A DNA stretch of 61,014 nt from Aequorivita todarodis (GTDB lineage Bacteria > Bacteroidota > Bacteroidia > Flavobacteriales > Flavobacteriaceae). The notes beneath the pieces are model-generated. The model made no database searches. It was not told the origin of the DNA and worked only from the letters and a program-made list of their open reading frames with translations. Every line of letters starts with the position of its first letter. Position 1 is the first letter of the stretch. Made by a program: the position numbers and the translations under genes. Positions 4,170 through 22,135 of this stretch are shown here, in pieces. Location of the stretch: positions 591-61,604 of the forward strand of contig NZ_JAQQTG010000010.1 of NCBI RefSeq assembly GCF_028561335.1, read 5' to 3'.

Positions 4170-4196
4170 CTCCCCTTTGAAGGGGGCTGGGGGGAT
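4170..4196. repeat. Isolated copy of the CCCCTTT-(A/G)AGGGG palindromic repeat
   Basis: The segment TCCCCTTTGAAGGGGGCTGG with a G-run behind it is a single diverged copy of the palindromic unit that forms the large arrays at 15378-15851 and 16320-16719. It lies between cysC and cysD. Confidence 0.7.
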
Positions 4197-8364: not shown

Positions 8365-9255
8365 ATGATGGAAAGTAAAAAAGCAAATCTTTTTGTAGTT
8401 GGCGCAATGAAGGCGGGCACTACCTTTTTCACAGAAATACTTTCCCAGCATCCACAAATATATCTTAGCCCGATTAAGGAACCGCATTATTTTATAAATT
8501 CCTTACCAAAAAATTTATACGAGCCATCCCGTTTTTTTTCTTTGGAAAATTACCTTGCAAATGATTTTCCAGCCCCATTGCATATTGCAAAAGTGGAAAA
8601 ATTGGACCAATACCAAAAACTTTTTTCCTTGGCTTCCGAGGCACATCTGTATCGGGCCGAAGCCAGTACCGCATATTTACACGCACCTGAATCTGCTGGA
8701 TTGATTCACGAATACAATCCCAATGCCAAGATAATAATTCTATTGCGCGAGCCGCTCAAAAGAGCGTTTTCACATTACAATATGGATAAGGGCTTGGGAA
8801 GGGTAAAAATGGAATTTGAAACCCTCGTTAAGGACGAAATTGTAAAATATAACAATGGCGCACTTCCTTGGAACAGTTATTTGGGGATGAGTTTTTATAA
8901 CAATGCAATTAATAGATACCAATCTTTCTTTGAGGATGTGTTGGTGGTTAATTTTGAGGATTTGACCAAGAATAAAACCGGGACGTTAAATGTAATTTCA
9001 AAATTTTTAAACATTAATGAATTTACTGCTGCTAATGTAGAACGGACCAATGAGACCAAGCAGCTACGTTTTCAAAAGGTGTTTTATATATTGAAGCAGT
9101 TGGGACTGAAAGATTATTTTTCAAAGATTTTCAGTCAAAATTTTAGGCAACGGCTCTTCCGTTTGGTAAGCAGCAATACAAAATCTGAGCTCAATATTTC
9201 TGAACAAACCCAAAACGATTTAACTACTATCTTTAATAACGAATCAAGAGGCTGA
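8365..9255 (+). CDS. PAPS-dependent sulfotransferase
   Basis: A 296-residue sulfotransferase-domain protein. The 5'-phosphosulfate-binding loop is GAMKAGTT (residues 13-20, Lys16 the key base) and the 3'-phosphate site is LLREPLKRAFSHY (about residues 125-137). It lacks a signal peptide or membrane span, so it should act in the cytoplasm on a nucleotide- or lipid-linked glycan before flipping. Donor supply is explained by cysC and cysDN 1.5-4.8 kb upstream and PAP removal by cysQ. The gene lies between flippase and polymerase candidate; the stop overlaps the next ATG by one base (TGATG at 9253-9257). The acceptor sugar is unknown. Confidence 0.93.
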   Translation: MMESKKANLFVVGAMKAGTTFFTEILSQHPQIYLSPIKEPHYFINSLPKNLYEPSRFFSLENYLANDFPAPLHIAKVEKLDQYQKLFSLASEAHLYRAEASTAYLHAPESAGLIHEYNPNAKIIILLREPLKRAFSHYNMDKGLGRVKMEFETLVKDEIVKYNNGALPWNSYLGMSFYNNAINRYQSFFEDVLVVNFEDLTKNKTGTLNVISKFLNINEFTAANVERTNETKQLRFQKVFYILKQLGLKDYFSKIFSQNFRQRLFRLVSSNTKSELNISEQTQNDLTTIFNNESRG

Positions 9256-10451
9256 TGGTATTGGATATTTGCATAACGGTCATTGTTTTTTTGGTTGGTT
9301 TCAACCTAAAGAATTGGTTTGGAGGATTTTCTTCTTTTGAGAAAAGTGTTCTGAACAAACTGTTTTTTTATCATATGATTATCGGGGTTGCCTTTCATTT
9401 CTACGCTGTTGAATATGGGGCTGATGCTATAGCATACTGGGATGTGCCAAAAGAAATTTCACTACCCGAAGTATTTGAAATAATCAAGAACGGATCTGCA
9501 TCAGGAATTATATATCTTATTAATTATTTTCCATCAAACACATTAAACTTATCATTTTTTGTTGGGAATATGTGTTATTCTTTATTCGGTTTCATCGGAT
9601 TTATATACTTATTTAAGATTATTAAAGACTTATTCAACAACTTAAACACTCTTAATGAGATTCGAATATTTGGAATTCCAATATTACCTTGGATCTGGTT
9701 TCTTCCAAATTTTCATTTTTGGTCATCAGGAATAGGTAAGGATACACTTTTATTTACTGCTATTGTTTTATTTCTTTATGCTTTTCAAAATATTCGCAAG
9801 CGATTGGTTATACTCTTGATAAGTATTCTTCTATCTTTTGCAATACGCCCCCATATTCTTCTTTTCTTACTTGTATCTTTTGCTATTGGTTATATTTTAG
9901 ATGGAAATTTAAAGGGGTATCAGAAGGCAATTTTATTTATTTTGCTCCTCATTGGTTTCGCTTCAATTTTTCGGTATGTTTTAGGCTTTATACAATTGGA
10001 AACGTTGGATATCAATAGTGTAGAAGATTATGTTTCAAAAAAGGCCAGTGGCTTAAATCAGGCAGACTCAGGATCTGGGATTGATACGAGCGGATATCCC
10101 TTTCCCTATAAGATTTTTACATTTTTGTATCGTCCCTTATTTTTTGACTCGCCTAACTCATTAGGTATTCTATCCTCTATTGAGAATTGTATTCTTTTAG
10201 TATTTACTTTAAAAGTTCTGTTCAACAAGCCATTTAAGGGATTACGAAAATCCAATTATTTGATTAAATCCAATTTAATCTACTTTTTAATAAGTGCAGC
10301 TGCTTTTGCTTTAATATTGGGTAATTTAGGCATCATGCTACGTCAAAAGAATATGATAATTCCTTCTTTAATAATAGTTGGATATAGTATTTTATATATA
10401 AACCATCAGCGGAAGAATAAAATAAATGAAAGTACTTCAACTTACAAATAG
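9255..10451 (+). CDS. Polytopic membrane protein, candidate capsule polymerase (Wzy/EpsG-like)
   Basis: A 398-residue protein with about ten hydrophobic segments spread over its length and a larger polar loop near residues 245-285 (VEDYVSKKASGLNQADSGSG region). Polymerases are poorly conserved, and the call rests on topology and on its position between sulfotransferase and glycosyltransferase in a locus that otherwise lacks a polymerase. The sequence is strongly AT-rich. The 3' end overlaps the next gene by 26 bases. An O-antigen ligase-like or other membrane glycan protein is possible. Confidence 0.6.
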   Translation: MVLDICITVIVFLVGFNLKNWFGGFSSFEKSVLNKLFFYHMIIGVAFHFYAVEYGADAIAYWDVPKEISLPEVFEIIKNGSASGIIYLINYFPSNTLNLSFFVGNMCYSLFGFIGFIYLFKIIKDLFNNLNTLNEIRIFGIPILPWIWFLPNFHFWSSGIGKDTLLFTAIVLFLYAFQNIRKRLVILLISILLSFAIRPHILLFLLVSFAIGYILDGNLKGYQKAILFILLLIGFASIFRYVLGFIQLETLDINSVEDYVSKKASGLNQADSGSGIDTSGYPFPYKIFTFLYRPLFFDSPNSLGILSSIENCILLVFTLKVLFNKPFKGLRKSNYLIKSNLIYFLISAAAFALILGNLGIMLRQKNMIIPSLIIVGYSILYINHQRKNKINESTSTYK

Positions 10452-11508
10452 TCTGATTACAGGTGGTGCGGAAAAATTGCTTTTTGATGCAATCCCATTT
10501 TATCAAAAAAAGGGGATAAATATTGATTTATTGGTATTAGATGGTACCGAGCATCCCCTTTTATCAGTTATAAAGAAAAATGAAAAAATAAGGATATATT
10601 CTTTCGGAAAAGGAAGTGTATATAATCCTTTTTTGGTGTTTAAAATCATTCCTTTTCTTAAAAAGTATGACGTGGTGCACGTTCATCTTTTTCCAGCTTT
10701 GTATTGGGTAGCATTAGCTAAATCTTTGTCATTTGCAAATACAAAAATTATATTTACGGAACACAGTACTCTTAACCGAAGACGAAATTTATTCGGCAAA
10801 TATTTTGATAAATTTATTTATAGCAAGTACTCAAAAATTATAGCCATTTCAGAATTGGTGAGGGAAAATTTAAAAAAACATTTAAATTTTGACGATAAAC
10901 GATTCTCCATTATTGAAAATGGTGTAGACCTAGAAAAAATTTCAACTGCTTTAGCTTCTGAGAATGATTTTTTTCAAAATAGCGATCCTAATCAAAAAAT
11001 CATTATACAAGTTTCAAGATTTATCTATCCCAAGGATCAGAAAACAGTGATTAACGCACTAAAATATTTACCTTCAAGTATAAAATTAATTCTTGTTGGA
11101 GACGGAATATTAAGAAAAGATTGTGAAAACTTAGTTGAACAACTCAAATTAGAAGATAGAGTGAATTTTTTAGGGGTTAGAATGGATGTTCCCCAATTAT
11201 TAAAATCATCAGATATAATCGTTTTATCTTCAGTTTATGAAGGTCTTTCATTATCAAGTATTGAGGGAATGGCTTCGGGAAAACCTTTCATAGCATCAGA
11301 TGTACCGGGATTAACAGAAGCAGTAAAAGGAGCTGGGCTTTTATTCCCTCAAGGCAATTCAAAAGAACTCGCTGATCAGATTTTGAAATTAGTGAACAAT
11401 CCCTCCTATTATTCCGATGTGTCAAAAAAATGCATTGAAAGATCAAAGGAATTTGACATTGAAAAAATGGTGGATAGTTATATAAATTTATATAAAGAAT
11501 TAGAATAG
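10426..11508 (+). CDS. Glycosyltransferase family 4
   Basis: A 360-residue GT-B enzyme. The N-terminal domain opens with LTNSLITGGAEKLLFD, typical of GT4 enzymes; the C-terminal nucleotide-sugar site includes VSRFIYPKDQ, LVGDG and YEGLSLSSIEGMASGKP, with the E-x7-E pair intact. It should add one sugar to the lipid-linked repeat unit at the cytoplasmic face. It overlaps the upstream membrane gene, and 11 bases separate it from the deacetylase-like gene. Donor and acceptor sugars cannot be read from sequence. Confidence 0.88.
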   Translation: MKVLQLTNSLITGGAEKLLFDAIPFYQKKGINIDLLVLDGTEHPLLSVIKKNEKIRIYSFGKGSVYNPFLVFKIIPFLKKYDVVHVHLFPALYWVALAKSLSFANTKIIFTEHSTLNRRRNLFGKYFDKFIYSKYSKIIAISELVRENLKKHLNFDDKRFSIIENGVDLEKISTALASENDFFQNSDPNQKIIIQVSRFIYPKDQKTVINALKYLPSSIKLILVGDGILRKDCENLVEQLKLEDRVNFLGVRMDVPQLLKSSDIIVLSSVYEGLSLSSIEGMASGKPFIASDVPGLTEAVKGAGLLFPQGNSKELADQILKLVNNPSYYSDVSKKCIERSKEFDIEKMVDSYINLYKELE

Positions 11509-11519
11509 ATAGAATTACT

Positions 11520-12500
11520 ATGACTCACGGAAGTTTAATTATTTCATTAGATTTTGAATTAATGTGGGGCGTTCGCGATAACAGCACCATAGATGATTAC
11601 GGGGATGCCATTCTTGGAGTAAAATCCGCGATGAAACGAATGTTGCAAACTTTTGATTATTATGATATTCATGCAACATTTGCGACCGTAGGATTTTTGT
11701 TTAATAAGGACAAAAAAGTGCTCTTGGATAATCTTCCTAAGACCAAGGTCAATTATGAGGATAAAAATCTATCACCATATGTTAATATCAATAATTATGT
11801 AGGTGAGAACGAAAAGGACGACCCTTATCATTTTGGATATAGTATTATCCAATTAATAAATGAATACCAAACCCACGAAATGGCAACCCATACTTATTGC
11901 CATTATTATTGTCTGGAACCTGGGCAGACGATCGATATGTACGAGAGTGACCTTAAAAAAGCAATAGAGGTGGCGGATAGAGAAGGAATACAATTTAAGA
12001 GTATAATATTTCCCAGAAACCAATATAACCATGAATATATCGAAATCTGTGAAAAAAATGGGCTTACCTGCTACCGTGGTAATGAAGAGCATTACATATA
12101 TAAACCAGCGAAAGGAGGGGAACAGACCCTCTTTAAAAGAGCGCTTCGCTTGATAGATGGATATTTCAATATAACGGGATATAATTGCTATAGTTATTCT
12201 ATTATCAAGAGCACTTTTCCCCATAATATACCCTCCAGTAGATTTTTAAGACCTTACAATAAAAAACTGAAAGCATTAGAAAAGTTAAAGTTAAAACGTA
12301 TTACTAACGCCATGACTTATGCTGCAAAAAATAACTTGGTATATCATTTATGGTGGCATCCACATAACTTTGGACGAAATACAAATGAAAACATACTGTT
12401 TCTTGAAAAAGTTCTTAATCATTATGAATATTTAAAAAAAACTTATCGTTTCCAATCAATTACCATGGGAGAGCTTTCCACAAAACTAAGAGCTAAGTAA
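11520..12500 (+). CDS. Polysaccharide deacetylase-like (NodB/CE4) protein
   Basis: A 326-residue cytoplasmic protein with CE4 features: motif 1 SLDFE (Asp11 as candidate base), a metal-binding HTYCH (His124 and His128), and FPRNQY as a motif-3-like arginine segment. It has no signal peptide, so it would act on an intracellular precursor, unlike secreted chitin deacetylases. Together with the adjacent formyltransferase this suggests that an amino group is freed and then formylated, which is inference. Its stop overlaps the next start by one base. Confidence 0.75.
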   Translation: MTHGSLIISLDFELMWGVRDNSTIDDYGDAILGVKSAMKRMLQTFDYYDIHATFATVGFLFNKDKKVLLDNLPKTKVNYEDKNLSPYVNINNYVGENEKDDPYHFGYSIIQLINEYQTHEMATHTYCHYYCLEPGQTIDMYESDLKKAIEVADREGIQFKSIIFPRNQYNHEYIEICEKNGLTCYRGNEEHYIYKPAKGGEQTLFKRALRLIDGYFNITGYNCYSYSIIKSTFPHNIPSSRFLRPYNKKLKALEKLKLKRITNAMTYAAKNNLVYHLWWHPHNFGRNTNENILFLEKVLNHYEYLKKTYRFQSITMGELSTKLRAK

Positions 12501-13264
12501 TGAAGACTATTATTCTTGCAGGCAAAGGCCAAAGCACAACATTTTTATATAATGCACTAAAGGATGATTTTGATATTGAAAAAGTGGTTATAGAAGAAAA
12601 GGTTGATATAAAAAAATTTATCAAAGGGAGGATTAAGCGTTTGGGTTATTTTTCGGTTTTTAATCAATTGCTTTTTCAAAGCACTATTCCAAAAATACTT
12701 TCATATTTTTCAAAAAAAAGAGTAGCGGAATTAAAAATGAAGTACAACCTTTCTTCCGTGCCAATTCCAGAACATAAAATAATGAACGTACCTTCTGTTA
12801 ATTCTAAAGAATCTATCAATTTTTTGAAAGATATAGATCCAACTGTAGTTATTGTAAATGGGACGAGAATAATAAGTACTAAAGTTTTAAAATGCACAAA
12901 AGCAAAATTCATAAATACCCATGTTGGAATTACTCCATTTTACAGAGGAGTCCATGGTGCTTATTGGGCTTTGGTAGCACAAGATATAGAAAATTGCGGA
13001 GTGACCATACACGAGGTGGACCAAGGGATAGATACGGGTTTAATTCTTAAACAAGCGAGAATTACTATTTCAAAGAATGATAACTTTACCACATATCCCT
13101 ATCATCAGTATGGTGTCTCTATTGCTCCTATGAAAACGGTTTTAAATGAAATTAAAAACAACACATTGGTTTATCAAAAAAAATCTTTTGAGAGCGGAAA
13201 ACTATATTATCATCCAACTTTTACCGGTTATTTATATCATAGAATTTTTAAAGGTGTAAAATAG
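12500..13264 (+). CDS. Formyltransferase-family protein (candidate sugar N-formyltransferase)
   Basis: A 254-residue protein with the formyl-transferase domain in its second half. The catalytic triad of the family is visible: Asn139 and His141 in INTHVGITPFYRG, and Asp178 in HEVDQGIDTG. It lacks the C-terminal tRNA-binding domain of Fmt, so it more likely formylates an amino sugar of the capsule with formyl-tetrahydrofolate. The first 100 residues are not typical of Fmt. Composition is AT-rich. Immediately downstream the DNA runs into a truncated copy of a glycosyltransferase start. Confidence 0.78.
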   Translation: MKTIILAGKGQSTTFLYNALKDDFDIEKVVIEEKVDIKKFIKGRIKRLGYFSVFNQLLFQSTIPKILSYFSKKRVAELKMKYNLSSVPIPEHKIMNVPSVNSKESINFLKDIDPTVVIVNGTRIISTKVLKCTKAKFINTHVGITPFYRGVHGAYWALVAQDIENCGVTIHEVDQGIDTGLILKQARITISKNDNFTTYPYHQYGVSIAPMKTVLNEIKNNTLVYQKKSFESGKLYYHPTFTGYLYHRIFKGVK

Positions 13265-13268
13265 TATT

Positions 13269-13352
13269 TTGAAACCCAAACTTATCCGCATAACCACAGT
13301 CCCCATTTCCCTCGAAAAACTGCTCGATTTTAGCAACACAAAAAAAATATAA
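13269..13352 (+). pseudogene. Truncated 5' end of a glycosyltransferase gene
   Basis: The frame from a TTG at 13269 reads KPKLIRITTVPISLEKLLD and then diverges to FSNTKKI and a stop at 13350-13352. The first part matches residues 3-21 of the intact glycosyltransferase at 14212 base for base. It is a remnant, not a working gene. Confidence 0.9.
13272..13327. repeat. 56-bp exact direct repeat, copy 1
   Basis: These 56 bases are identical to 14218-14273, an offset of 946 bp. Divergence begins at the base on each side. The repeat is the 5' coding end of a GT4 gene. Confidence 0.97.
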
Positions 13353-13420
13353 GTATTTAAGATTATAACTTTATAAAAAAAGTAATAGAAATCTTTTGTG
13401 TACAATATTTTGAGAAATTT

Positions 13421-14023
13421 ATGAATGATTTTTTTCACATTTCGAGTTTAAAAGAAAATTGCGAAATTGCAATGAAAGCCTATAGTGAAATTGTTAATTT
13501 CAATGAATATAGACAGAAGCGCAGAGCGTATTTTGAAAAGGAACGCGACTATAAACATTTAGAAGGTTATGATATTTATGAGGAAAACCCACATATTTTT
13601 TTGAAAAAACAACTAGATGAATTCTTAATCAGTACAGCCAGGGTATCTAAAATTTTTTGGCCGATTAGAAAGAAGTACAAATCTCGTGGAGAAAGATTAA
13701 GAAAAATGTTTTCGGTAAAGGATAACCATATTTTAAAGAATAGGTCACTGCGGGATGCTATAGAGCATAATGATGAAAAACTAGATGATTGGCTTGAACA
13801 AAAGTCAGCGTTCAAAATAAATTATTCTATAGGTGATAAACCTCCAAATATTGTTTATCTAGGCCCTTCAACTCAAGATTTAAAAATTGATGATCACATA
13901 CTGTATCACTTTGATCGATTAGGTTTAAAATTCTATTTCAGAAATCAAATTTTTGATATAAAGAAAATGAACGATGGAGTTGAAGAAATTCTTACTAAAA
14001 TTACAAAGTTCGAAGGATTTTAA
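13421..14023 (+). CDS. Uncharacterised 200-residue protein, possibly HEPN-like
   Basis: I do not recognise a firm family. The protein is soluble, strongly charged and helical in appearance. Residues 108-125 read NRSLRDAIEHNDEKLDDW, and RDAIEH (Arg111, His116) fits the R-x4-H motif of HEPN domains, but one short motif is weak support. It lies alone between the two copies of the 56-bp repeat, has flanking non-coding AT-rich stretches of 68 and 188 bp, and is as AT-rich as the preceding capsule genes. It could be a leftover of an earlier capsule cassette or a cargo gene unrelated to capsule. Confidence 0.6.
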   Translation: MNDFFHISSLKENCEIAMKAYSEIVNFNEYRQKRRAYFEKERDYKHLEGYDIYEENPHIFLKKQLDEFLISTARVSKIFWPIRKKYKSRGERLRKMFSVKDNHILKNRSLRDAIEHNDEKLDDWLEQKSAFKINYSIGDKPPNIVYLGPSTQDLKIDDHILYHFDRLGLKFYFRNQIFDIKKMNDGVEEILTKITKFEGF

Positions 14024-14211
14024 ATATACTCTACACGCGTAGTCGTATTTATTTTCGACTTGGTACTTTTAAAACGAATCATAGAATATACATCCAAGCT
14101 TGTGATTACGATCGATAAATTTTGGGCCGAATCCATTTACGGAATACAGTATTCTTATATTTTATATTTTTTGTTGCCCCTTGTATTAATATCATAGAAA
14201 AGATTTAAAAA

Positions 14212-15372
14212 ATGCCCAAACCCAAACTTATCCGCATAACCACAGTCCCCATTTCCCTCGAAAAACTGCTCGACGGACAATTAGCTTATTTAAACAAATT
14301 TTTTAATGTTACTGCCGTTTCTGGAAATGGACCATCACTAGAAGAAGTTAAAGAAAGAGAAAAAGTTCGTGTTGTTGCCCTGGAAATGGAAAGAAAGATT
14401 AATCCAGTTAAAGATATTCTTTCATTGTTTCAATTGATTAGATTCTTTCAGAAAGAAAAGCCAGATATAGTGCACTCCATTACGCCAAAAGCTGGACTAT
14501 TATCTATGACGGCTGCATATTTTACAGGGGTTCCCATTAGAATTCATACTTTTACGGGGTTAATATTTCCAACGAAAAAGGGGATTTTAAAAAAAGTATT
14601 GATAACAATGGATAAAATATTATGCGTATTTGCAACTAATATATATCCAGAAGGGCAAGGGGTGAAACAAGATTTATTAAAATATAACATTACAAAGAAA
14701 CCATTAAAGGTTTTGGCCAATGGAAATATTAATGGGATTGACACGGCTTATTTTGACCCAAGTTTATACTCAGATAATGATAAGACCTTATTAAAGACTA
14801 AATGGGGCATTCCCCAAGACAACTTCCTTTTTGTCTTTGTAGGCCGTTTGGTTAAGGACAAAGGAATAAACGAATTGATTGCTGCTTTTTCAAAGCTTTC
14901 CATATTAAACAATAAGGTTTCGTTGTTATTGGTAGGCCCTTTTGAAAATGATTTGGATCCACTGTTGCCCTCTACCTTAAAAACCATTGAAAGCCATTCC
15001 CGTATTTATTCTGCAGGCTATCAAAACGACGTTCGTCCCTTTTTTGCCATTGCGGATGCCCTTGTATTTCCAAGTTATCGCGAAGGGTTCCCCAATGTGG
15101 TTATGCAGGCCGGGGCTATGGGATTGCCGGCTATAGTAACAGATATAAATGGTTGCAATGAGATAATAGATCACCACGTAAATGGCCTAATTGTGGCGCC
15201 AAAAAATGAGGAAGAATTAAAAGCCGCTATGGAACTGTTGGTTATGGACACTACATTATATTCCTCCTTAAAATCTACATCACGGCAAATAATTGTTGAA
15301 AAATACAACAGACAAGAGGTTTGGGAGGCTTTGTTGGCGGAATACAGAAAATGTGTCAAAACTGGATTATAG
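14212..15372 (+). CDS. Glycosyltransferase family 4 (exopolysaccharide type)
   Basis: A 386-residue GT-B enzyme. Segments IVHSITPKAGLLSMTAAYFTGVPIR, FVGRLVKDKGI and YREGFPNVVMQAGAMGLPAIVTD are typical of capsule and exopolysaccharide GT4 enzymes. In the E-x7-E motif the second glutamate reads Gln (EGFPNVVMQ), which is worth noting though tolerated in some relatives. The 5' coding end (14218-14273) is duplicated exactly at 13272-13327, so recombination has occurred at this gene. Its 3' end runs into the palindromic repeat island. Composition rises back towards that of the flanking genome within the gene. Confidence 0.9.
   Translation: MPKPKLIRITTVPISLEKLLDGQLAYLNKFFNVTAVSGNGPSLEEVKEREKVRVVALEMERKINPVKDILSLFQLIRFFQKEKPDIVHSITPKAGLLSMTAAYFTGVPIRIHTFTGLIFPTKKGILKKVLITMDKILCVFATNIYPEGQGVKQDLLKYNITKKPLKVLANGNINGIDTAYFDPSLYSDNDKTLLKTKWGIPQDNFLFVFVGRLVKDKGINELIAAFSKLSILNNKVSLLLVGPFENDLDPLLPSTLKTIESHSRIYSAGYQNDVRPFFAIADALVFPSYREGFPNVVMQAGAMGLPAIVTDINGCNEIIDHHVNGLIVAPKNEEELKAAMELLVMDTTLYSSLKSTSRQIIVEKYNRQEVWEALLAEYRKCVKTGL
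14218..14273. repeat. 56-bp exact direct repeat, copy 2 (within the intact GT4 gene)
   Basis: Second copy of the repeat at 13272-13327, here as codons 3-21 of the functional gene. Confidence 0.97.
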
Positions 15373-15377
15373 CTCGC

Positions 15378-15851
15378 TTTTTCGGAGGGCAGGGGTAAAC
15401 CCTTCCATCTGACCCCGGCCCTAAAGGGAGCATACCCCGGCCCTAAAGGGAGCATACCCCGACCCTAAAGGGAGCATACCCCGGCCCTAAAGGGAGCCAT
15501 ACCCCATCCCTAAAGGGTGCTATCAATATCGCTGTATTTTATCTCTCCCCTTTAGGGGCCGGGGGTAAGCCATCCATCTGACTCCGACCCTAAAGGGTGC
15601 CATACCCCATCCTTAAAAGAAGCCATCAATAACATTGTTACTCCCCTTTAGGGGCTGGGGGTCAAGCCGATATTTGACCCCATCCCTAAAGGGTGCCTAC
15701 CCCGGCCCTAAAGGGAGCCCATCAATATTGCTGTGTTTTGTCTCTCCCCTTTAGGGGCCGGGGGTTCAGCCGATATTTGAGCTCCATCTCTATAGGGTGG
15801 TTCCCCCCTTTAGGGGTCGGGGGTATTCTGTTCCTCCTTTAGGGGTTGAGG
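15378..15851. repeat. Left palindromic repeat array (CCCTAAAGGG / CCCCTTTAGGGGCCGGGGG)
   Basis: About 475 bp made of two alternating elements. One is a 21-23 bp unit with CCCCGGCCCTAAAGGGAGC, in tandem at 15413, 15434, 15456, 15479 and 15502 and singly later. The other is the inverse form CTCCCCTTTAGGGGCCGGGG at about 15545, 15642, 15744 and 15804. Between them are conserved spacers (ATCAATATTGCTGTGTTTTG; AGCCGATATTTGA; CCATCTGA). Each inverse pair can form a long stem with a loop of about 30 nt, as in bacterial interspersed mosaic elements. No gene is seen here. Confidence 0.92.
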
Positions 15852-15919
15852 AAAAATCCAAAATTTATTATCTTTATAGGGGTTATCGATTAAGGATTTT
15901 TTTATTTAAATATTACGAG

Positions 15920-16333
15920 ATGTCTTCTTTTAAAAATAACTATAAGGATATTGGTATGCACAAAGGCGCACCTCCGAAGATATTTGCCATAGCAAGAATC
16001 CTTCGAAATAAAATGACGCCTGCCGAAACGAAGTTATGGGAACATCTCAAAAACAACCAAATGGAAGGTTTTAAGTTTAGAAGACAGCACCCAATACATT
16101 TATTTATTGCAGATTTTTATTGTCATAAATTAGGATTGATAATTGAATTGGATGGAGAATATCACAATGAAGAAGAACAAATGCTGAAGGACAAAGAGCG
16201 AACGGAGTTGTTGAATTTTCAAAATGTTTCAGTTATAAGGTTCAAGAATGAGGAGGTAGAAAACGAAATCGAAAAGGTATTAGCCGAAATAAAATCTTTT
16301 ATAAATAACACCCAGCATCAACCCCGGCCCTAA
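15920..16333 (+). CDS. DUF559 endonuclease-fold protein embedded in the repeat island
   Basis: A 137-residue protein of the DUF559 (Vsr/PD-(D/E)XK-like) family. The core is TPAETKLWEHLK, FKFRRQHPI, IADFYC (Asp65), IELDGEYH (Glu76, Asp78, His82) and VIRFKNEEV, all in canonical order, so the nuclease site appears intact. The ATG at 15920 is preferred; the frame is open upstream to 15797 but that part translates repeat DNA. The last codons (HQPRP) already read into the right-hand repeat array, so repeat sequence supplies the C-terminus and stop. Repeat arrays of the same family flank it closely on both sides. Target and cellular role are unknown. Confidence 0.88.
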   Translation: MSSFKNNYKDIGMHKGAPPKIFAIARILRNKMTPAETKLWEHLKNNQMEGFKFRRQHPIHLFIADFYCHKLGLIIELDGEYHNEEEQMLKDKERTELLNFQNVSVIRFKNEEVENEIEKVLAEIKSFINNTQHQPRP

Positions 16334-16719
16334 AGGGTGCATACCCCGGCCCTAAAGAGTGCCATCATTATTGCTGTATTTTGTCTCTCCCCTTTAGGGG
16401 GCCGGGGGTAAACCCTCCATCTGACCCCATCCCTAAAGGATGCCATACCCCGTTCCTAAGGGAGCAGCCATACCCCATCCCTAAAGGGTGCCATCAATAT
16501 TGCCCTGTTTTGTCTCTCCCCTTTAGGGGCCGGGGGTAAACCCTTCCATCTGACCCCAGCCCTAAAGGGTGCCATACCCAACCCTAAAGGGAGCCATCAA
16601 TAACTTTGTTCCTCCCCTTTAGGGGCCGGGGGTTCAGCCGATATTTGAGCCCCGTCCCTAAAGAGTGCCTGCATTGCAAAATTTTGTTTCTTCCCTTTAG
16701 GGGCCGGGGGCTAAATCCC
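16320..16719. repeat. Right palindromic repeat array
   Basis: About 400 bp of the same repeat family as 15378-15851, with about eight CCCTAAAGGG-type units and four CCCCTTTAGGGGCCGGGG-type units (near 16389, 16517, 16615, 16692) and the same spacers. It starts inside the last codons of the DUF559 gene and ends about 40 bp before the next promoter. Confidence 0.92.
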
Positions 16720-16759
16720 TTAAAATAAAAATCGTGCCCTGCCACTCATTCCTTTTCCG

Positions 16760-16767
16760 TAATTTTG
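16760..16767 (+). promoter_or_regulatory. Promoter -7 element (TAATTTTG)
   Basis: A perfect TAnnTTTG 23 nt upstream of the ATG at 16791, just beyond the repeat island. It would restart transcription of the second half of the capsule locus. Confidence 0.55.
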
Positions 16768-16790
16768 CGCCTTGAAAAACATTTTCCAAA

Positions 16791-17390
16791 ATGTACCAAA
16801 GCATATTAAAACCTTTTTTTGACTTTTTTGGCGCATTGGTTTTAATACTGATAACGGCTCCAGTAATGGTTGTGGTTGCTATAATTTTGGCATTTTCCAA
16901 TGGTGGCTCCCCTTTTTTTTTGCAAAAACGCCCGGGTAAAAAGGAACGTATTTTTACCATTGTCAAATTTAAAACAATGAATGATAGAACGAATAGCGAA
17001 GGAAAACCGCTCCCGGATTCCGAAAGGATTACCAAGATGGGCAAATTTATTCGCTCCACTTCCTTAGATGAATTGCCACAACTTTTAAATGTCTTAAAGG
17101 GCGATATGAGTTTTGTGGGACCGAGACCCTTACTGCCGGAATATCTTCCCCTTTATAATGAAGTCCAAAGGAAAAGGCATAACGTCAAACCCGGAATTAC
17201 GGGCTGGGCACAGGTAAACGGACGGAACGCTCTAAGTTGGGAACAGAAGTTTGAATATGACATTTGGTATGTAGCCCACCAGTCTTTTTGGGTTGATGTG
17301 AAAATACTGTTTAAGACAATTGAAAAGGTTTTTAAAAAGGACGGCATTGCACAAGCGGGACAAGCAACTGCAGAACCCTTTAAGAAGTAG
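16791..17390 (+). CDS. Phosphoglycosyl transferase (PglC-like, small monotopic)
   Basis: A 199-residue bacterial sugar transferase. It has one N-terminal membrane segment (about residues 8-35) and the family core: FTIVKFKTMND, TSLDELPQLLNVLKGDMSFVGPRP and KPGITGWAQVNGRN. It moves a sugar-1-phosphate from UDP onto undecaprenyl phosphate and so starts repeat-unit assembly at the inner membrane. The short, WbaP-domain-free form is that of PglC, which uses UDP-diNAc-bacillosamine, and genes for a PglD-, PglE- and PglF-like pathway follow. A second enzyme of this family is encoded at 18051. Confidence 0.92.
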   Translation: MYQSILKPFFDFFGALVLILITAPVMVVVAIILAFSNGGSPFFLQKRPGKKERIFTIVKFKTMNDRTNSEGKPLPDSERITKMGKFIRSTSLDELPQLLNVLKGDMSFVGPRPLLPEYLPLYNEVQRKRHNVKPGITGWAQVNGRNALSWEQKFEYDIWYVAHQSFWVDVKILFKTIEKVFKKDGIAQAGQATAEPFKK

Positions 17391-17450
17391 AGAATCAGGG
17401 CTTTTTTCCTGTATATTCGCAAAGGAGATTGCAACATAAAATAAAACGTG

Positions 17451-18050
17451 ATGATATTATTTGGAGCCAGCGGGCATTGTAAATCCGTAATCGACATAGC
17501 TGAATCTATGGGAGAGAAAATCACAGTTATTTATGACGATAATCCCAGCGTGGAAGCAGTTTGCCATATTCCTGTTCAAAAATTTCTGACTGACTTTAGG
17601 GGCACCAATGAAACTTGGGTTGTTTCCATTGGAAATAATAAAAATCGAAAGAAAGTAACGGAAAAGTTGGCCAAGAATTTTGGGCTTCTAATCCATAGAA
17701 CTGCTACTATTTCTTCTTGGTCTTCCATCGGCGATGGCACTGTGGTTATGGCAAAAACTGTAATAAATGCTTGCACCACTATTGGAGAGCACTGTATAAT
17801 CAATTCGGGTGCTGTAATTGAGCACGACTGTAAATTGGGTGATTTTGTCCACATTTCCCCCAACGCCAGTTTGGCAGGAGGTGTCATAGTGGGCGAGGGG
17901 ACACATATTGGGATTGGAGCCTCGGTGCTGCCCGAAATTAATATTGGTAAATGGGCCACTATAGGTGCTGGCGCAGTAGTCATCAAAGACGTGCCTGATG
18001 GAGCGGTAATTGTTGGGAATCCGGGAAGAATTATAAAAACGAATGGATAG
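17451..18050 (+). CDS. PglD-like sugar O/N-acetyltransferase
   Basis: A 199-residue left-handed beta-helix acetyltransferase of the NeuD/PglD family. The N-terminal Rossmann-like part has GASGHCKSVIDIAE; the C-terminal part shows the hexapeptide repeat pattern (IGDGTVVMAKTVINA, IGEHCIINSGAVIEHDC, IGIGASVLPEINIG). His in the EHDC segment is the usual catalytic base. With the aminotransferase at 19005 and dehydratase at 20210 it could acetylate the C4 amine of a UDP-trideoxy sugar. A GTG lies one codon upstream of the chosen ATG. The next gene starts directly behind the stop. Confidence 0.9.
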   Translation: MILFGASGHCKSVIDIAESMGEKITVIYDDNPSVEAVCHIPVQKFLTDFRGTNETWVVSIGNNKNRKKVTEKLAKNFGLLIHRTATISSWSSIGDGTVVMAKTVINACTTIGEHCIINSGAVIEHDCKLGDFVHISPNASLAGGVIVGEGTHIGIGASVLPEINIGKWATIGAGAVVIKDVPDGAVIVGNPGRIIKTNG

Positions 18051-18599
18051 GTGAAAGCTTTAAAAAGATGGTTCGATATTGTATTATCCAGCATCGGACT
18101 TTTATTTTTCGGTTGGTTAATCCTCCTTTTTATCCTTATTGCCTATTTTGATACTGGAAATGGTACGTTTCTTCAAAAAAGAATAGGCCAATACGGAAAA
18201 CCCTTTAACATCTTTAAAATCAGAACGATAAACGATAAAACAGGCTATATTTCAAAATTTGGAATGTTTTTAAGAAAATCGAAAATTGACGAATTGCCAC
18301 AATTGGTGAATATCCTTTTTGGGCAAATGAGTTTTGTGGGCCCACGTCCCGATATTCCCGGGTATTACGATAAATTGGAGGGGGAGGATAGAAAAATATT
18401 GGAGCTGAAACCGGGTTTAATCAGTAAGGCGGCTTTAAAATATTATAATGAGGAAGCCCTTTTGAAAAAACAGGCAGATCCCTTAAAATACAACGACGAA
18501 ATTATCTTTCCCGACAAAGTACGAATGAATCTGGAGTACTATTACAACAGATCTTTTGCGGAGGACCTGAGGATTTTGTGGCTTTTTTTGACGAAATAA
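18051..18599 (+). CDS. Second phosphoglycosyl transferase (sugar transferase)
   Basis: A 182-residue bacterial sugar transferase with one N-terminal membrane segment (residues about 8-34) and the core FLQKRIGQYGKPFNIFKIRT, SKIDELPQLVNILFGQMSFVGPRPD and ELKPGLISKAALKYYNEE. The C-terminal segment departs from the GITGWAQVNGR form of the enzyme at 16791, so the two probably differ in substrate. It starts with GTG directly after the acetyltransferase stop, without a gap. Two such enzymes in one locus may give two initiation routes, or one may be left over from cassette exchange. Confidence 0.88.
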   Translation: MKALKRWFDIVLSSIGLLFFGWLILLFILIAYFDTGNGTFLQKRIGQYGKPFNIFKIRTINDKTGYISKFGMFLRKSKIDELPQLVNILFGQMSFVGPRPDIPGYYDKLEGEDRKILELKPGLISKAALKYYNEEALLKKQADPLKYNDEIIFPDKVRMNLEYYYNRSFAEDLRILWLFLTK

Positions 18600-18725
18600 C
18601 TTTTTCTTCAATAACTTTTTAATGTAGCCCAGCTTTTTCTATGTATGGTTCAAAATTAATATTGCTACTTTCGGAAGGTCTTTGTCTCCGTTCAGGCTGC
18701 TTCCCTTGGAGTTGAGGTAGGTTTA

Positions 18726-18780
18726 AGCTACTCAAAGGCTACCCAAAGGCTACCCAAAGGCTACCCAAAGGCTACCCAAA
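18726..18780. repeat. 11-bp tandem repeat GGCTACCCAAA x4 plus one diverged copy
   Basis: Perfect units start at 18737, 18748, 18759 and 18770; a diverged unit AGCTACTCAAA precedes at 18726. It lies in the 405-bp gap between the two halves of the sugar-biosynthesis genes. Apart from this array and the promoter at 18874 I see nothing else coding or structured in 18600-19004. Confidence 0.92.
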
Positions 18781-18873
18781 GACTAAAAGCTGAAGTATCG
18801 CACGGTTTATTAAATTTGATGGGTAGAATAGATTTGTATATTCTTATTTATTAAATGTCGCCATAATATTTCT

Positions 18874-18881
18874 TAACTTTG
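18874..18881 (+). promoter_or_regulatory. Promoter -7 element (TAACTTTG)
   Basis: A perfect TAnnTTTG with an unusually long leader of about 120 nt before the aminotransferase ATG at 19005. No clear -33 TTG. Confidence 0.5.
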
Positions 18882-19004
18882 CGCCCTCCTTAACGATTCG
18901 CAATAATGTTAAATATTATGTTGTTGCCCTATTAAAAAAGGGTACCCTTTATGCGACTTTACTGTAAACGAAATTTTTAATTATATTCCCCCAATGTCAA
19001 GCTA

Positions 19005-20141
19005 ATGGACTCAAAAATATATCTTTCCTCCCCACATATGGGCGGCGCTGAGCAGGCTTTTGTCAACGAGGCATTTCAGACCAACTGGGTAGCGCCCTTG
19101 GGCCCAAATGTGGAAGGTTTTGAGAAATCATTGGAAAGTTATCTTGGCAATGGAACCCACGTTGCAGCATTAAGCTCGGGTACAGCAGCAATACATTTGG
19201 CGCTTATATTATTGGGTGTGGAAAGAGGCGATGAGGTTCTCTGCCAGAGTATGACCTTTTCGGCTTCGGCAAATCCCATTGTGTATCAAGGCGCAACCCC
19301 AGTTTTTGTCGATAGCGAGCCCGAAACCTGGAACATCTGCCCAGATCATTTGGAAGTGGCCATAAAGGACCGAATTGCCAAAGGGAAAAAACCAAAAGCC
19401 ATTATCGCCGTCCACCTTTACGGAATGCCCTATAAAGTTGATGCGATAAAGAAGATTTCCGAAAAGTATGAAATTCCAATCGTGGAGGATAGCGCCGAAG
19501 CATTGGGAAGTAGTTATAAGGGCCGAAAATGTGGTACTTTTGGTGATATTTCCATCCTTTCCTTTAACGGTAATAAAATCATTACCACTTCGGGAGGCGG
19601 CGCTTTGGTATCCCGAAACTTGAAGCACAAGGAAAAGGCGATCTTCTTGGCCACCCAGGCGCGCGATGCCGCACCGCATTACCAACATTCTGAAATAGGC
19701 TATAATTACAGGCTCAGCAATATTTCCGCAGGGATAGGCAGAGGACAAATGGAAGTTTTGGACAAACACATAGGCTCGCGAAGAAAAATGAACCAATTTT
19801 ATCACGAGATTTTTGCAAGGACAGAGGGCGTAAAGGTTTTTTCGGAGCCCACTTCTGATTTCTTTTCAAATCATTGGCTATCTTGCATCTTGGTTGATAA
19901 AACCAGTTGTGGTTTTTCATCGGAAGCTATCAGATTGGCAATGGCCGAAAATAATATAGAATGTCGGCCGTTATGGAAACCGATGCACCTGCAGCCGGTT
20001 TTTAAAAATGCACCCTATTATGGTTCAACGGTTTCAGAAAAACTATTTGGGATTGGATTGTGCTTGCCTTCGGGTTCAAATTTAAAAAGTGAAGAAAAAG
20101 TTAAGATTAACGATGTTTTAATACGTTTCGTCGATAATTGA
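19005..20141 (+). CDS. DegT/DnrJ/EryC1-type sugar aminotransferase (PglE-like)
   Basis: A 378-residue PLP-dependent aminotransferase of fold type I. Family landmarks: SSPHMGGAEQAFVNEAF at the start, LSSGTAAIHLAL for phosphate binding, VEDSAEALGSSYKGRKCGTFGDIS, and SFNGNKIITTSGGG with the PLP lysine near residue 190. It would transfer an amino group to the C4 keto sugar made by the dehydratase encoded next. The end of the gene contains no hairpin, but a promoter for the following gene lies just behind the stop. Confidence 0.93.
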   Translation: MDSKIYLSSPHMGGAEQAFVNEAFQTNWVAPLGPNVEGFEKSLESYLGNGTHVAALSSGTAAIHLALILLGVERGDEVLCQSMTFSASANPIVYQGATPVFVDSEPETWNICPDHLEVAIKDRIAKGKKPKAIIAVHLYGMPYKVDAIKKISEKYEIPIVEDSAEALGSSYKGRKCGTFGDISILSFNGNKIITTSGGGALVSRNLKHKEKAIFLATQARDAAPHYQHSEIGYNYRLSNISAGIGRGQMEVLDKHIGSRRKMNQFYHEIFARTEGVKVFSEPTSDFFSNHWLSCILVDKTSCGFSSEAIRLAMAENNIECRPLWKPMHLQPVFKNAPYYGSTVSEKLFGIGLCLPSGSNLKSEEKVKINDVLIRFVDN

Positions 20142-20143
20142 GG

Positions 20144-20151
20144 TATATTTG
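20144..20151 (+). promoter_or_regulatory. Promoter -7 element (TATATTTG) of the dehydratase gene
   Basis: A perfect TAnnTTTG three bases behind the aminotransferase stop. The frame of the next gene is open across this element (to 20138), so the promoter argues for the ATG at 20210 as the real start. Confidence 0.6.
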
Positions 20152-20209
20152 TAGTCCCAAATCTTACGAAACCGTGTATAAAAATTATCCCCTTTTTGCT
20201 AATATTATA

Positions 20210-22135
20210 ATGCAGACCAAAAAAATAAAGCTTTTAGACCAACGGTATTTACCCCGTTGGGCTGTGTTTTTACTGGATATTTTTATTTGTATCGCCTCCT
20301 TCGCAACCATGTTTTTGATTCTGGACGGTACGCCCCTAAAGCCCCACAATGTGTGGCCAACACCTTTGCGGGCGCTGTTTCTTATATCAGTCAACGTTTT
20401 CTTCTTCTATTCGTTTAAAACCTATGCGGGAATTGTCCGCCATTCCACCTTTACCGATATTTTCAAAGTTGCCTCCGCTTCCTTTTTTACCGCGCTGACC
20501 GCCATCATATTCAATTATGCTTATTTCATATTCTCGGGCCAAAAAATATTCTTGACTACGGGTATTTTGCTCTATATGTTCTTTTCTTTCACGCTAATGC
20601 TTTTTTTCAGAATTGCAGTAAAAGAAGCTTACCATTATTTAAAGGAAATAAGCACCGGAAAACTAAAGAAAAGAGTAGTAATTCTCGGCATGGACGACCA
20701 GACCATTTCCCTGGGAAAAGCACTGACCACAGAGTCCAATCTTCCCTATAAACTGGTTGGGTTCATTACCGAAAACCAAATAAACAACAATCTGAAAATC
20801 CTGAACAAACCCGTTTTTTCCGTACCCATCACCAATACTTCCAACGAATTTACGGAACTTCTGGCGCAGCACAACCTAGACGGGGTTTTGATTGTGAGCG
20901 AATCCCTTAGCATTAAGGAGAAAAACCAAATTGTGGAAGCCTGTTTGGCCAATAAGGTTGAAATTTTCAACGTGCCGCTCGTGGAACATTGGAACCGGAA
21001 GGAAGACATCCAAACCCAAATAAAGCCAATCCAGATTGAGGATTTGCTGGAGCGCACCCCAATTGCAATGGATATTGAGCTCATCAAAAGCGATTTGCAC
21101 GGAAAAACCATATTGGTAACGGGCGGTGCCGGCTCTATAGGCAGTGAAATCGTAAAACAGTTGGCGGCCTTCAGCCCAAAAAAGATCGTAATACTTGACA
21201 ATGCCGAATCTGCCCTTCACGAGATGGAATTGTACATGAACCAAAACCACAGTGGGCTGAACTTTACAATAATGCTGGCAGACATCCGAAACCTTGAGCG
21301 TATGGAAATGCTTTTTGCAAAGTACAGGTTCAATATGATCTATCACGCTGCGGCATACAAACACGTTCCATTAATTGAAAAAAACCCACACGAAGCGGTC
21401 TATGTAAACATTGGCGGCACCATAAACCTGGCAAATCTTTCCGTAAAATACAATATTGAAAAGTTTGTAATGATTTCCACCGATAAGGCCGTGAACCCAA
21501 CCAATGTGATGGGGGCGTCAAAACGGGCGGCCGAAATGTATGTGCAATCCTTGCAGGACCATATATCCATAAATACGCGTTTCATAACCACTCGCTTTGG
21601 AAATGTATTGGGTTCCAACGGTTCCGTAATTCCTTATTTCAGAAAACAGATTGCCGCAGGTGGCCCCGTAACGGTTACACATAAGGATATCATTAGGTAT
21701 TTTATGACCATTAGCGAAGCTTGCCAATTGGTGCTTCAGGCCGGAACAATGGGCAACGGCGGGGAAATATATGTTTTCGATATGGGCAAACCCATAAAAA
21801 TCCTCGATATGGCCGAACGAATGATCCGTCTTTCCGGCCTTAAGCCTTATGAAGACATAGATATTGAAATAACAGGCCTCAGGCCCGGCGAAAAACTATA
21901 TGAGGAACTGCTGAACGATTCCTCAACATCTTTGCCTACCTACCATCCAAAAATCATGGTGTCAAAAGTTCCGACTGTCGATTATACCGAAATATCCATC
22001 AAAATACAGGAAATAGTTACCATTTCTGAATTTGGCAAGGATAAGGAAATCGTAAAAAAGCTAAAGGAACTCATCCCCGAATTTTTGAGCAATAATTCAG
22101 AATATGAAATCCTGGACGTGCAAAGGCATGTGTAG
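20210..22135 (+). CDS. Membrane-bound nucleoside-diphosphate-sugar 4,6-dehydratase (PglF/CapD/WbpM-like)
   Basis: A 641-residue protein. Four N-terminal membrane segments (within about residues 12-150) are followed by a CoA-binding-like Rossmann domain (RVVILGMDDQTISLGKAL) and the catalytic SDR domain with TGGAGSIGSE near residue 301 and STDKAVNPTNVMGASKR near 423. In this subfamily Met replaces the usual SDR tyrosine before the conserved Lys, as seen here. It converts UDP-GlcNAc to the 4-keto-6-deoxy sugar, the first step to bacillosamine-type sugars; the partner enzymes are at 19005 and 17451. The chosen ATG follows the promoter at 20144. Confidence 0.93.
   Translation: MQTKKIKLLDQRYLPRWAVFLLDIFICIASFATMFLILDGTPLKPHNVWPTPLRALFLISVNVFFFYSFKTYAGIVRHSTFTDIFKVASASFFTALTAIIFNYAYFIFSGQKIFLTTGILLYMFFSFTLMLFFRIAVKEAYHYLKEISTGKLKKRVVILGMDDQTISLGKALTTESNLPYKLVGFITENQINNNLKILNKPVFSVPITNTSNEFTELLAQHNLDGVLIVSESLSIKEKNQIVEACLANKVEIFNVPLVEHWNRKEDIQTQIKPIQIEDLLERTPIAMDIELIKSDLHGKTILVTGGAGSIGSEIVKQLAAFSPKKIVILDNAESALHEMELYMNQNHSGLNFTIMLADIRNLERMEMLFAKYRFNMIYHAAAYKHVPLIEKNPHEAVYVNIGGTINLANLSVKYNIEKFVMISTDKAVNPTNVMGASKRAAEMYVQSLQDHISINTRFITTRFGNVLGSNGSVIPYFRKQIAAGGPVTVTHKDIIRYFMTISEACQLVLQAGTMGNGGEIYVFDMGKPIKILDMAERMIRLSGLKPYEDIDIEITGLRPGEKLYEELLNDSSTSLPTYHPKIMVSKVPTVDYTEISIKIQEIVTISEFGKDKEIVKKLKELIPEFLSNNSEYEILDVQRHV

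Follow-up and report, generated by a model that had tools for sequence, protein, structure and literature searches.

A 61,014-nt stretch of the Aequorivita todarodis genome (contig NZ_JAQQTG010000010.1; hereafter the window) carries a single gene for a DUF559 nuclease embedded in an island of palindromic repeats. This island is probably an expanded array of palindromes of the intrastrand-triplex type (the BoxC/PIT class) together with its cognate Vsr-fold nuclease, DUF559, and the family to which it belongs likely represents a mobile unit. We directly observed linkage between gene and repeats, co-variation of the two, presence and absence of a unit at an orthologous site and, for one clade, in-frame insertion, to which a predicted fold of the nuclease can be added; gene and palindromes are inherited together as a pair. 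A nuclease that cuts at or spreads such palindromes, as proposed in the original prediction for this DNA, would best explain these observations.

The dense array enclosing one DUF559 gene (15920-16333) is real: all 12 exact copies of CCCTAAAGGG and all 8 exact copies of CCCTTTAGGG found in the window lie within 15419-16702, against a base-composition expectation for the window of ~0.035 per motif. Left-type ends (CCCC-NN-CCCTAAAGGG) number 15 with tails under a loose pattern, plus ~3 with a degenerate core or tail recognized by eye, where roughly 16 units had been predicted; right-type ends (CCCTTTAGGGG-NN-GGGGG, the tail being followed by T or C) number 8, plus a degenerate one at 15835, rather than 13. 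The ends are organized into units of ~65-90 nt, each with two mutually inverted ends that pair end to end in the predicted fold. The repeat also supplies the end of the gene, as had been claimed: the TAA stop (16331-16333) sits within a CCCTAAAGGG palindrome at 16328-16337, so that the last residues (PRP) and the stop are encoded by the repeat. Gene-less units share both ends with the gene-bearing unit in the window, the relation that a miniature inverted-repeat transposable element has to its autonomous partner, and in another locus (L030) a short unit has, by eye, ~28 nt and the right end in common with the 3' end of the gene. The window gene is the sole PF04480 match (E 7.5e-35), with no other Pfam family on the protein; the predicted fold is Vsr/I-Bth0305I-like, in agreement with the Vsr/PD-(D/E)XK-like partner suggested originally, and D65, E76, D78 and H82 are invariant in both protein alignments (A1 and A2). 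Genome-wide, the core CCCCTWWAGGGG occurs in 36 copies compared with 4 for the reversed control; 7 of the 36 are in the island, the others being dispersed. The same genome contains four DUF559 copies, each with different palindromes, and a fifth, partial match (L005) with none of the island's cores.

Within the genus, 7 of 28 genomes have the window-type protein (E 1e-25). Repeats were counted with a specific end pattern of variable gap, summed over both strands, whereby one site can give up to three matches; the 47 matches in G122, for example, correspond to ~30 sites by our own count of the listing. All seven gene-bearing genomes were positive (46, 47, 27, 27, 15, 11 and 6 matches), compared with 15 of the 21 genomes lacking the window-type gene having zero matches and six having 2-12, and the reversed control gave 0 in 28/28. 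The repeat is therefore less abundant where this gene is lacking (Mann-Whitney p 5e-5, Fisher p 0.0014, kinship uncorrected). The genes neighbouring the island were recognized only in G137, where the array is largely rewritten, and the flanking sequence differs in the other five gene-bearing genomes (both by eye). Elsewhere, a complete two-ended unit lies upstream of one conserved gene in G000 and G126, with different spacers, and is missing, within the 210 nt read, from the other 22 of 24 readable genomes (25 loci, one unreadable; one partial locus left out). Similarly, a palindrome was found by eye in the fba-accD gap of 6/28 genomes, and the reading frame of one G000 gene includes a palindrome at a position where the sequence is different in the other 24 readable orthologues (27 orthologues matched, two unreadable).

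The sequence of the palindromes follows that of the protein. Across 61 loci from 39 genomes (two loci without a stem were dropped), protein identity correlates with palindrome similarity (r 0.37), and the palindrome similarity to the nearest protein relative in another genome is 0.73, compared with a mean of 0.46. This co-variation was reached by 0/2000 free permutations and by 0/5000 permutations within genomes (17 genomes with more than one copy), and the palindrome thus tracks the DUF559 subfamily, not the genome. On the protein tree, palindrome classes need 11 changes versus 37.0 when shuffled; these classes were defined by eye after viewing the data, the permutation test being the unsupervised one. 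The TTTA class of the window occupies one side of a tree branch (support 93/68, not starred). A 16-nt palindrome, GTCCCCTCAAGGGGAC, is identical in four genomes of four genera, in each case beside related DUF559 proteins.

Beyond the genus, the surroundings of DUF559 genes were scored at family level, where 40 of 120 genomes hold a relative of the window protein (66 matches; 63 loci were used, without a near-duplicate in G073 and single matches in G084 and G037), and in a scan of species genomes, from which the best 80 of at least 575 relatives were taken. Scoring used a mechanical grammar, in which C-arm, loop, G-arm, gap and G-run had to be present no more than 450 nt away on both sides; 17 loci with short flanks were skipped and 126 with full flanks scored. 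The grammar was present on both sides at 29/62 family and 40/64 species-genome loci versus 1/126 and 0/339 shifted windows, that is, at 69/126 DUF559 loci versus 1/465 shifted windows, and on at least one side at 102/126 versus 54/465. Since the shifted windows are mostly coding, the control was repeated around other open reading frames (ORFs) of the same loci, of which 20/409 had the grammar on both sides; identical 13-mers flanked 63/126 DUF559 genes and 23/409 other ORFs. DUF559 homologues are thus associated with palindromes whose sequence is subfamily-specific, and neither of the two outcomes named as refuting the original prediction was obtained. The association also appears to extend beyond Bacteroidota: by hand tally of record titles, many of which denote metagenome assemblies, 14 species-genome loci out of 64 do not carry a Bacteroidota label, and 8 of these 14 were positive, including Methylomonas, Planktothrix, Acinetobacter, Stagnimonas and Phycisphaerales. 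A phage origin was considered and set aside: of 17 viral loci, 13 were examined, and G/C palindromes flank the gene on both sides in four (L322, L323, L324 and L326), on one side in three and on neither in six. The stop codon lies no more than 10 nt from such a stem in 27/115 standalone DUF559 genes versus 33/537 other ORFs, and strictly within one in 11/115 versus 11/537. The exact core CCCCTWWAGGGG was detected in 19/120 family genomes, with at most 3 copies outside its own genome, not above the reversed control; its sole copy in G042 is 76 nt from a DUF559 gene. Thus, the exact core is local and not family-wide, and the grammar is general.

In one DUF559 clade (13 rows, support 99/92) the domain is part of a long reading frame. 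The host gene is leuS in seven genomes, recG in three and metH in two; in one genome the domain lies at the end of hisD. One example of each host gene was named by NCBIfam. The frame runs through both edges of the insert in the leuS, recG and metH copies, except for one leuS copy (L143) broken inside the insert, and the edges are, by eye, marked by palindromes. The strict grammar covers both sides in only 4 of the 13 copies, so the edges rest on reading by eye; a looser stem search located at least one stem near 13/13. In leuS, the loop between NWIG and TTRP measures 27-52 aa in 22/30 genomes and holds a DUF559 insert of 162-230 aa in six, a further insert genome, G112, not being readable through; the seven insert genomes were picked because a protein search had already found them, and these counts are therefore not a frequency. 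Leucyl-tRNA synthetase of G002 (L175) has a degenerate DUF559 at the same site, with the palindromes gone, which is likely a fossil of such an insertion. The recG frame spans 853-865 aa in three genomes, chosen likewise, versus 700-775 aa in the other 26, and in G027, of the same genus, recG is uninterrupted and the neighbouring stretch is 96% identical in protein. Hence, occupied and empty alleles exist for both recG and leuS. In four further cases, a DUF559 copy forms the start of a downstream gene's reading frame; one of these is threonine-dehydratase-like and three resemble hemD, although the one checked with NCBIfam was not confirmed as such. The same leuS loop can also contain other short inserts that lack DUF559 (L190, for example ATTCCGAGCGAAGCGAAGGAATC, L195 and L189).

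By base pattern, the right-type ends fit the intrastrand-triplex grammar of BoxC, PIT and TM repeats. In 202 such ends at 93 loci, 0.88 of positions are triplex-compatible (third-strand G on G, A or T on A) versus 0.75 with shuffled tails (0/500), the best register being chosen for both real and shuffled tails; opposite stem A, the best-fitting register has T 167, A 153, G 24 and C 12 times, i.e., T or A in 320/356. According to the accessible text of PMC4666352, E. coli has been known to carry BoxC/PIT repeats since the 1990s, the E. coli motif forms an intrastrand triplex in vitro, and strain MG1655 has 23 copies, with five inverted pairs, each combining two loop types. The same text counts over 260 bacterial genomes with the G/C motif, at high copy number in certain Enterobacteria and Cyanobacteria, links the motif to genome instability and reports BoxC loci to be unstable in E. 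coli; it states that a gene for mobility was not detected in the vicinity of the E. coli copies, and its main text does not name ycjD, the DUF559 gene of E. coli K-12. The last codons and stop of ycjD lie in an imperfect C/G BoxC-like palindrome (L335:6396-6425), the YcjD C-terminus reading ...RRSPSP, and ~165 nt beyond this palindrome there is a 48-base BoxC-type sequence (L335:6203-6250), which by our own identification, made from its sequence and loop type, would correspond to the published BoxC. Of 5426 E. coli genomes, 5376 contain this sequence, at 2-33 places each (median 19). K-12 ycjD was found by megablast in 3365 of the 5426, with 2061 giving no match; in one strain without it, B20123 (L362), regulator and efflux genes occupy the ycjD site.

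These observations can be accommodated in a simple scheme. Each end would consist of a palindrome folded into a stem-loop and, outside it, a G/C-rich third strand, the two ends being inverted and the full unit carrying the DUF559 gene between them, and the short units, consisting of two ends and a spacer, would be gene-less derivatives moved in trans. The nuclease would recognize the folded end of its own subfamily, probably in single-stranded form at the replication fork, and nick beside it, after which repair or replication would copy the unit to a new place or add units to an array. Cleavage, the single-stranded step and the role of DUF559, rather than of another enzyme, as the mover are what we infer. 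In its broadest form, to which we lean with only slightly better than even confidence, the proposal is that BoxC/PIT triplex repeats throughout bacteria owe their mobility to DUF559 proteins, the enzymes long missing from the picture. These would form a class of mobile element combining a Vsr-fold nuclease with triplex-forming ends, with gene-less derivatives as the dispersed repeats, one branch residing in frame in essential genes such as leuS, and YcjD as the BoxC nuclease. If so, a subfamily-matched nuclease would explain the origin of BoxC/PIT repeats, testable in E. coli through one gene, and the set of enzymes dispersing palindromic repeats would gain a catalytic fold, with leucyl-tRNA synthetase, RecG and methionine synthase as hosts of an in-frame nuclease domain.

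Several results weigh against a mobile nuclease-palindrome unit. Both-sided grammar is missing from 57 of the 126 scored DUF559 loci, 24 of which have it on neither side, and 9 of the 13 viral loci examined lack palindromes on both sides, 6 of them having none; among the 13 in-gene copies, the strict grammar is present on both sides in 4 and on neither side in 5. For each host gene, the leuS, recG and metH copies share a single site across several genera, a pattern that old insertions followed by vertical descent would explain as well as homing would. The predicted folding energy of the window units is unexceptional compared with shuffles (z -1.9, -1.8 and -1.1). No excision product was seen, and the empty sites read are too diverged for a base-exact call of target-site duplications. 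In E. coli, ycjD represents a single locus, its stop palindrome is imperfect and, by eye, without a third strand, and the sole ycjD-less strain read, B20123, is not a clean empty site. Finally, the genus genomes G144, G123, G131, G141, G127 and G138 carry their matches without a window-type gene, and no DUF559 relic was found in five repeat-bearing stretches from four of these six genomes.

This last observation would be expected if the DUF559 genes were passengers caught, in a composite-like fashion, between two palindrome copies moved by another enzyme, e.g., a REP-associated tyrosine transposase (RAYT, REP denoting repetitive extragenic palindromic) or an insertion sequence transposase, and nearby copies can indeed flank any gene, as in the 20 flanked ORFs of the control. 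A passenger, however, would not co-vary with the palindrome, and even paralogues within a single genome have palindrome classes that match their DUF559 subfamily, the identical 16-nt palindrome being shared by related proteins of four genera; we consider this explanation unlikely. Hardly different in its low probability, if a shade lower, is that DUF559 serves in repair or clearance as a structure-specific nuclease acting on triplex or hairpin DNA, with the repeats being regulatory or fragile sites that multiply by slippage and recombination and are not moved by the nuclease. The Vsr-like predicted fold and the reported instability of BoxC loci are compatible with such a function, as is VsrA of Caulobacter, a DUF559 protein which, in the available part of PMC12907096, triggers the SOS response in methyltransferase-less cells and has a proposed role in mismatch repair, but it leaves unexplained both the dispersed two-ended unit at an intergenic site, missing in relatives, and the palindrome-bounded DUF559 elements in frame in leuS, recG and metH.

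It is very improbable that the palindromes are no more than common terminators or mRNA-stability elements that cluster incidentally. Some copies, such as those in the fba-accD gap, are located directly downstream of genes; nevertheless, the island has one weak terminator-like site, below the shuffled mean of 3.1, matches no Rfam family at gathering score, and copies occur inside open reading frames. Earlier work cited in the accessible text of PMC4666352 describes PIT elements without promoter or terminator activity, and co-variation with a nuclease subfamily is not expected of such elements. Each of these three alternatives would fail on at least one of the heritable pair, the unit at an orthologous site and the in-frame insertions.

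The features of the island and the in-gene copies are compiled below. The DUF559 gene is neighboured by glycosyltransferase-like and sugar-transferase-like genes, as read from their translations. The isolated palindrome near position 4170, originally taken for a relative of the array, shows the array's grammar around a different core, CCCCTTTGAAGGGGG; it is more similar to the palindromes that surround the second DUF559 gene of the same genome (L004), and hence is not the island's repeat. Searches for a known defence system returned weak PADLOC matches only (best, mREase_II, 2e-7), and the Rfam search gave one chance match, far below gathering score.

Table. Features of the palindrome island and associated elements in the window, and loci of the in-gene DUF559 copies
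Feature	Position in window	Strand	Loci
Isolated right-type palindrome of another class (TTTGAA loop), with the island's grammar	4170..4196	+	
Four tandem left-type ends, 22-23 nt spacing, ACCCCGGCCCTAAAGGGAGCAT	15412..15500	+	
Short unit: left end, spacer, right end; ends pair mutually in predicted fold	15501..15566	.	
Short unit: two left-type ends and right end	15581..15662	.	
Short unit: two left-type ends and right end	15677..15765	.	
Degenerate left end (CTCTATAGGG) and right end	15781..15824	.	
Degenerate right-type end, closest to gene start	15834..15850	+	
DUF559 (PF04480) nuclease gene, 137 aa, ATG at 15920	15920..16333	+	
Short unit: two left ends and right end	16321..16409	.	
Left-type palindrome encoding PRP and stop TAA of DUF559 gene	16322..16337	+	
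Left ends and right end; unit 16472-16537 complete	16424..16537	.	
Short unit: two left ends and right end	16553..16633	.	
Short unit: left end, spacer, right end	16649..16711	.	
DUF559 copies in leuS			L140, L131, L132, L135, L137, L139, L143
DUF559 copies in recG			L141, L134, L138
DUF559 copies in metH			L133, L136

Among known systems, REP/REPIN-RAYT provides a close parallel. RAYT genes are flanked by REP palindromes, which co-vary with the protein and form inverted-pair units. The DUF559 system shares this architecture, with high-copy dispersed palindromes, often in inverted pairs, flanking a single nuclease gene, gene-less inverted pairs and co-variation in sequence, so the comparison drawn in the original prediction holds as a working principle. 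The enzyme, however, is not an HUH (Y1) transposase, PF04480 being the only Pfam family and the predicted fold being Vsr-like, of the Vsr/PD-(D/E)XK type, and the ends bear a G-rich third strand instead of the GTAG or CGTC tag at the palindrome foot that, in the available part of PMC3733652, defines REP. The DUF559 system works like REP/RAYT and, by fold and end tag, is not a member of it.

The EDxHD homing endonucleases, such as I-Bth0305I, share the Vsr-like catalytic fold according to the structural prediction. No intron family matched the window island in the Rfam scan, the in-gene copies not having been searched for introns or inteins, and short repeat derivatives that lack the gene are not known from this family. 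From Vsr patch repair and VsrA of Caulobacter the present system differs in that palindromes surround the DUF559 gene; no methyltransferase was noticed by eye in the ORF translations of 9255-22135, where no domain search was made, and an unlinked partner is possible, as for VsrA. Rickettsia palindromic elements sit in frame inside genes and thus resemble the in-frame palindromic insertions in conserved genes described here, although the latter also encode a nuclease domain. The BoxC/PIT repeats (Holder 2015, PMC4666352), as far as described in the accessible text, have the same succession of C-arm, loop, G-arm, short loop and G-rich third strand, and are likewise dispersed, with some inverted pairs whose second loops differ. 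The link between DUF559 and repeats was not found in the open-licence papers searched. The DNA repeat class is already known and the DUF559 link appears to be new: no gene partner is named in the accessible text of PMC4666352, whereas here each repeat class has its own DUF559 subfamily and some elements are gene-bearing.
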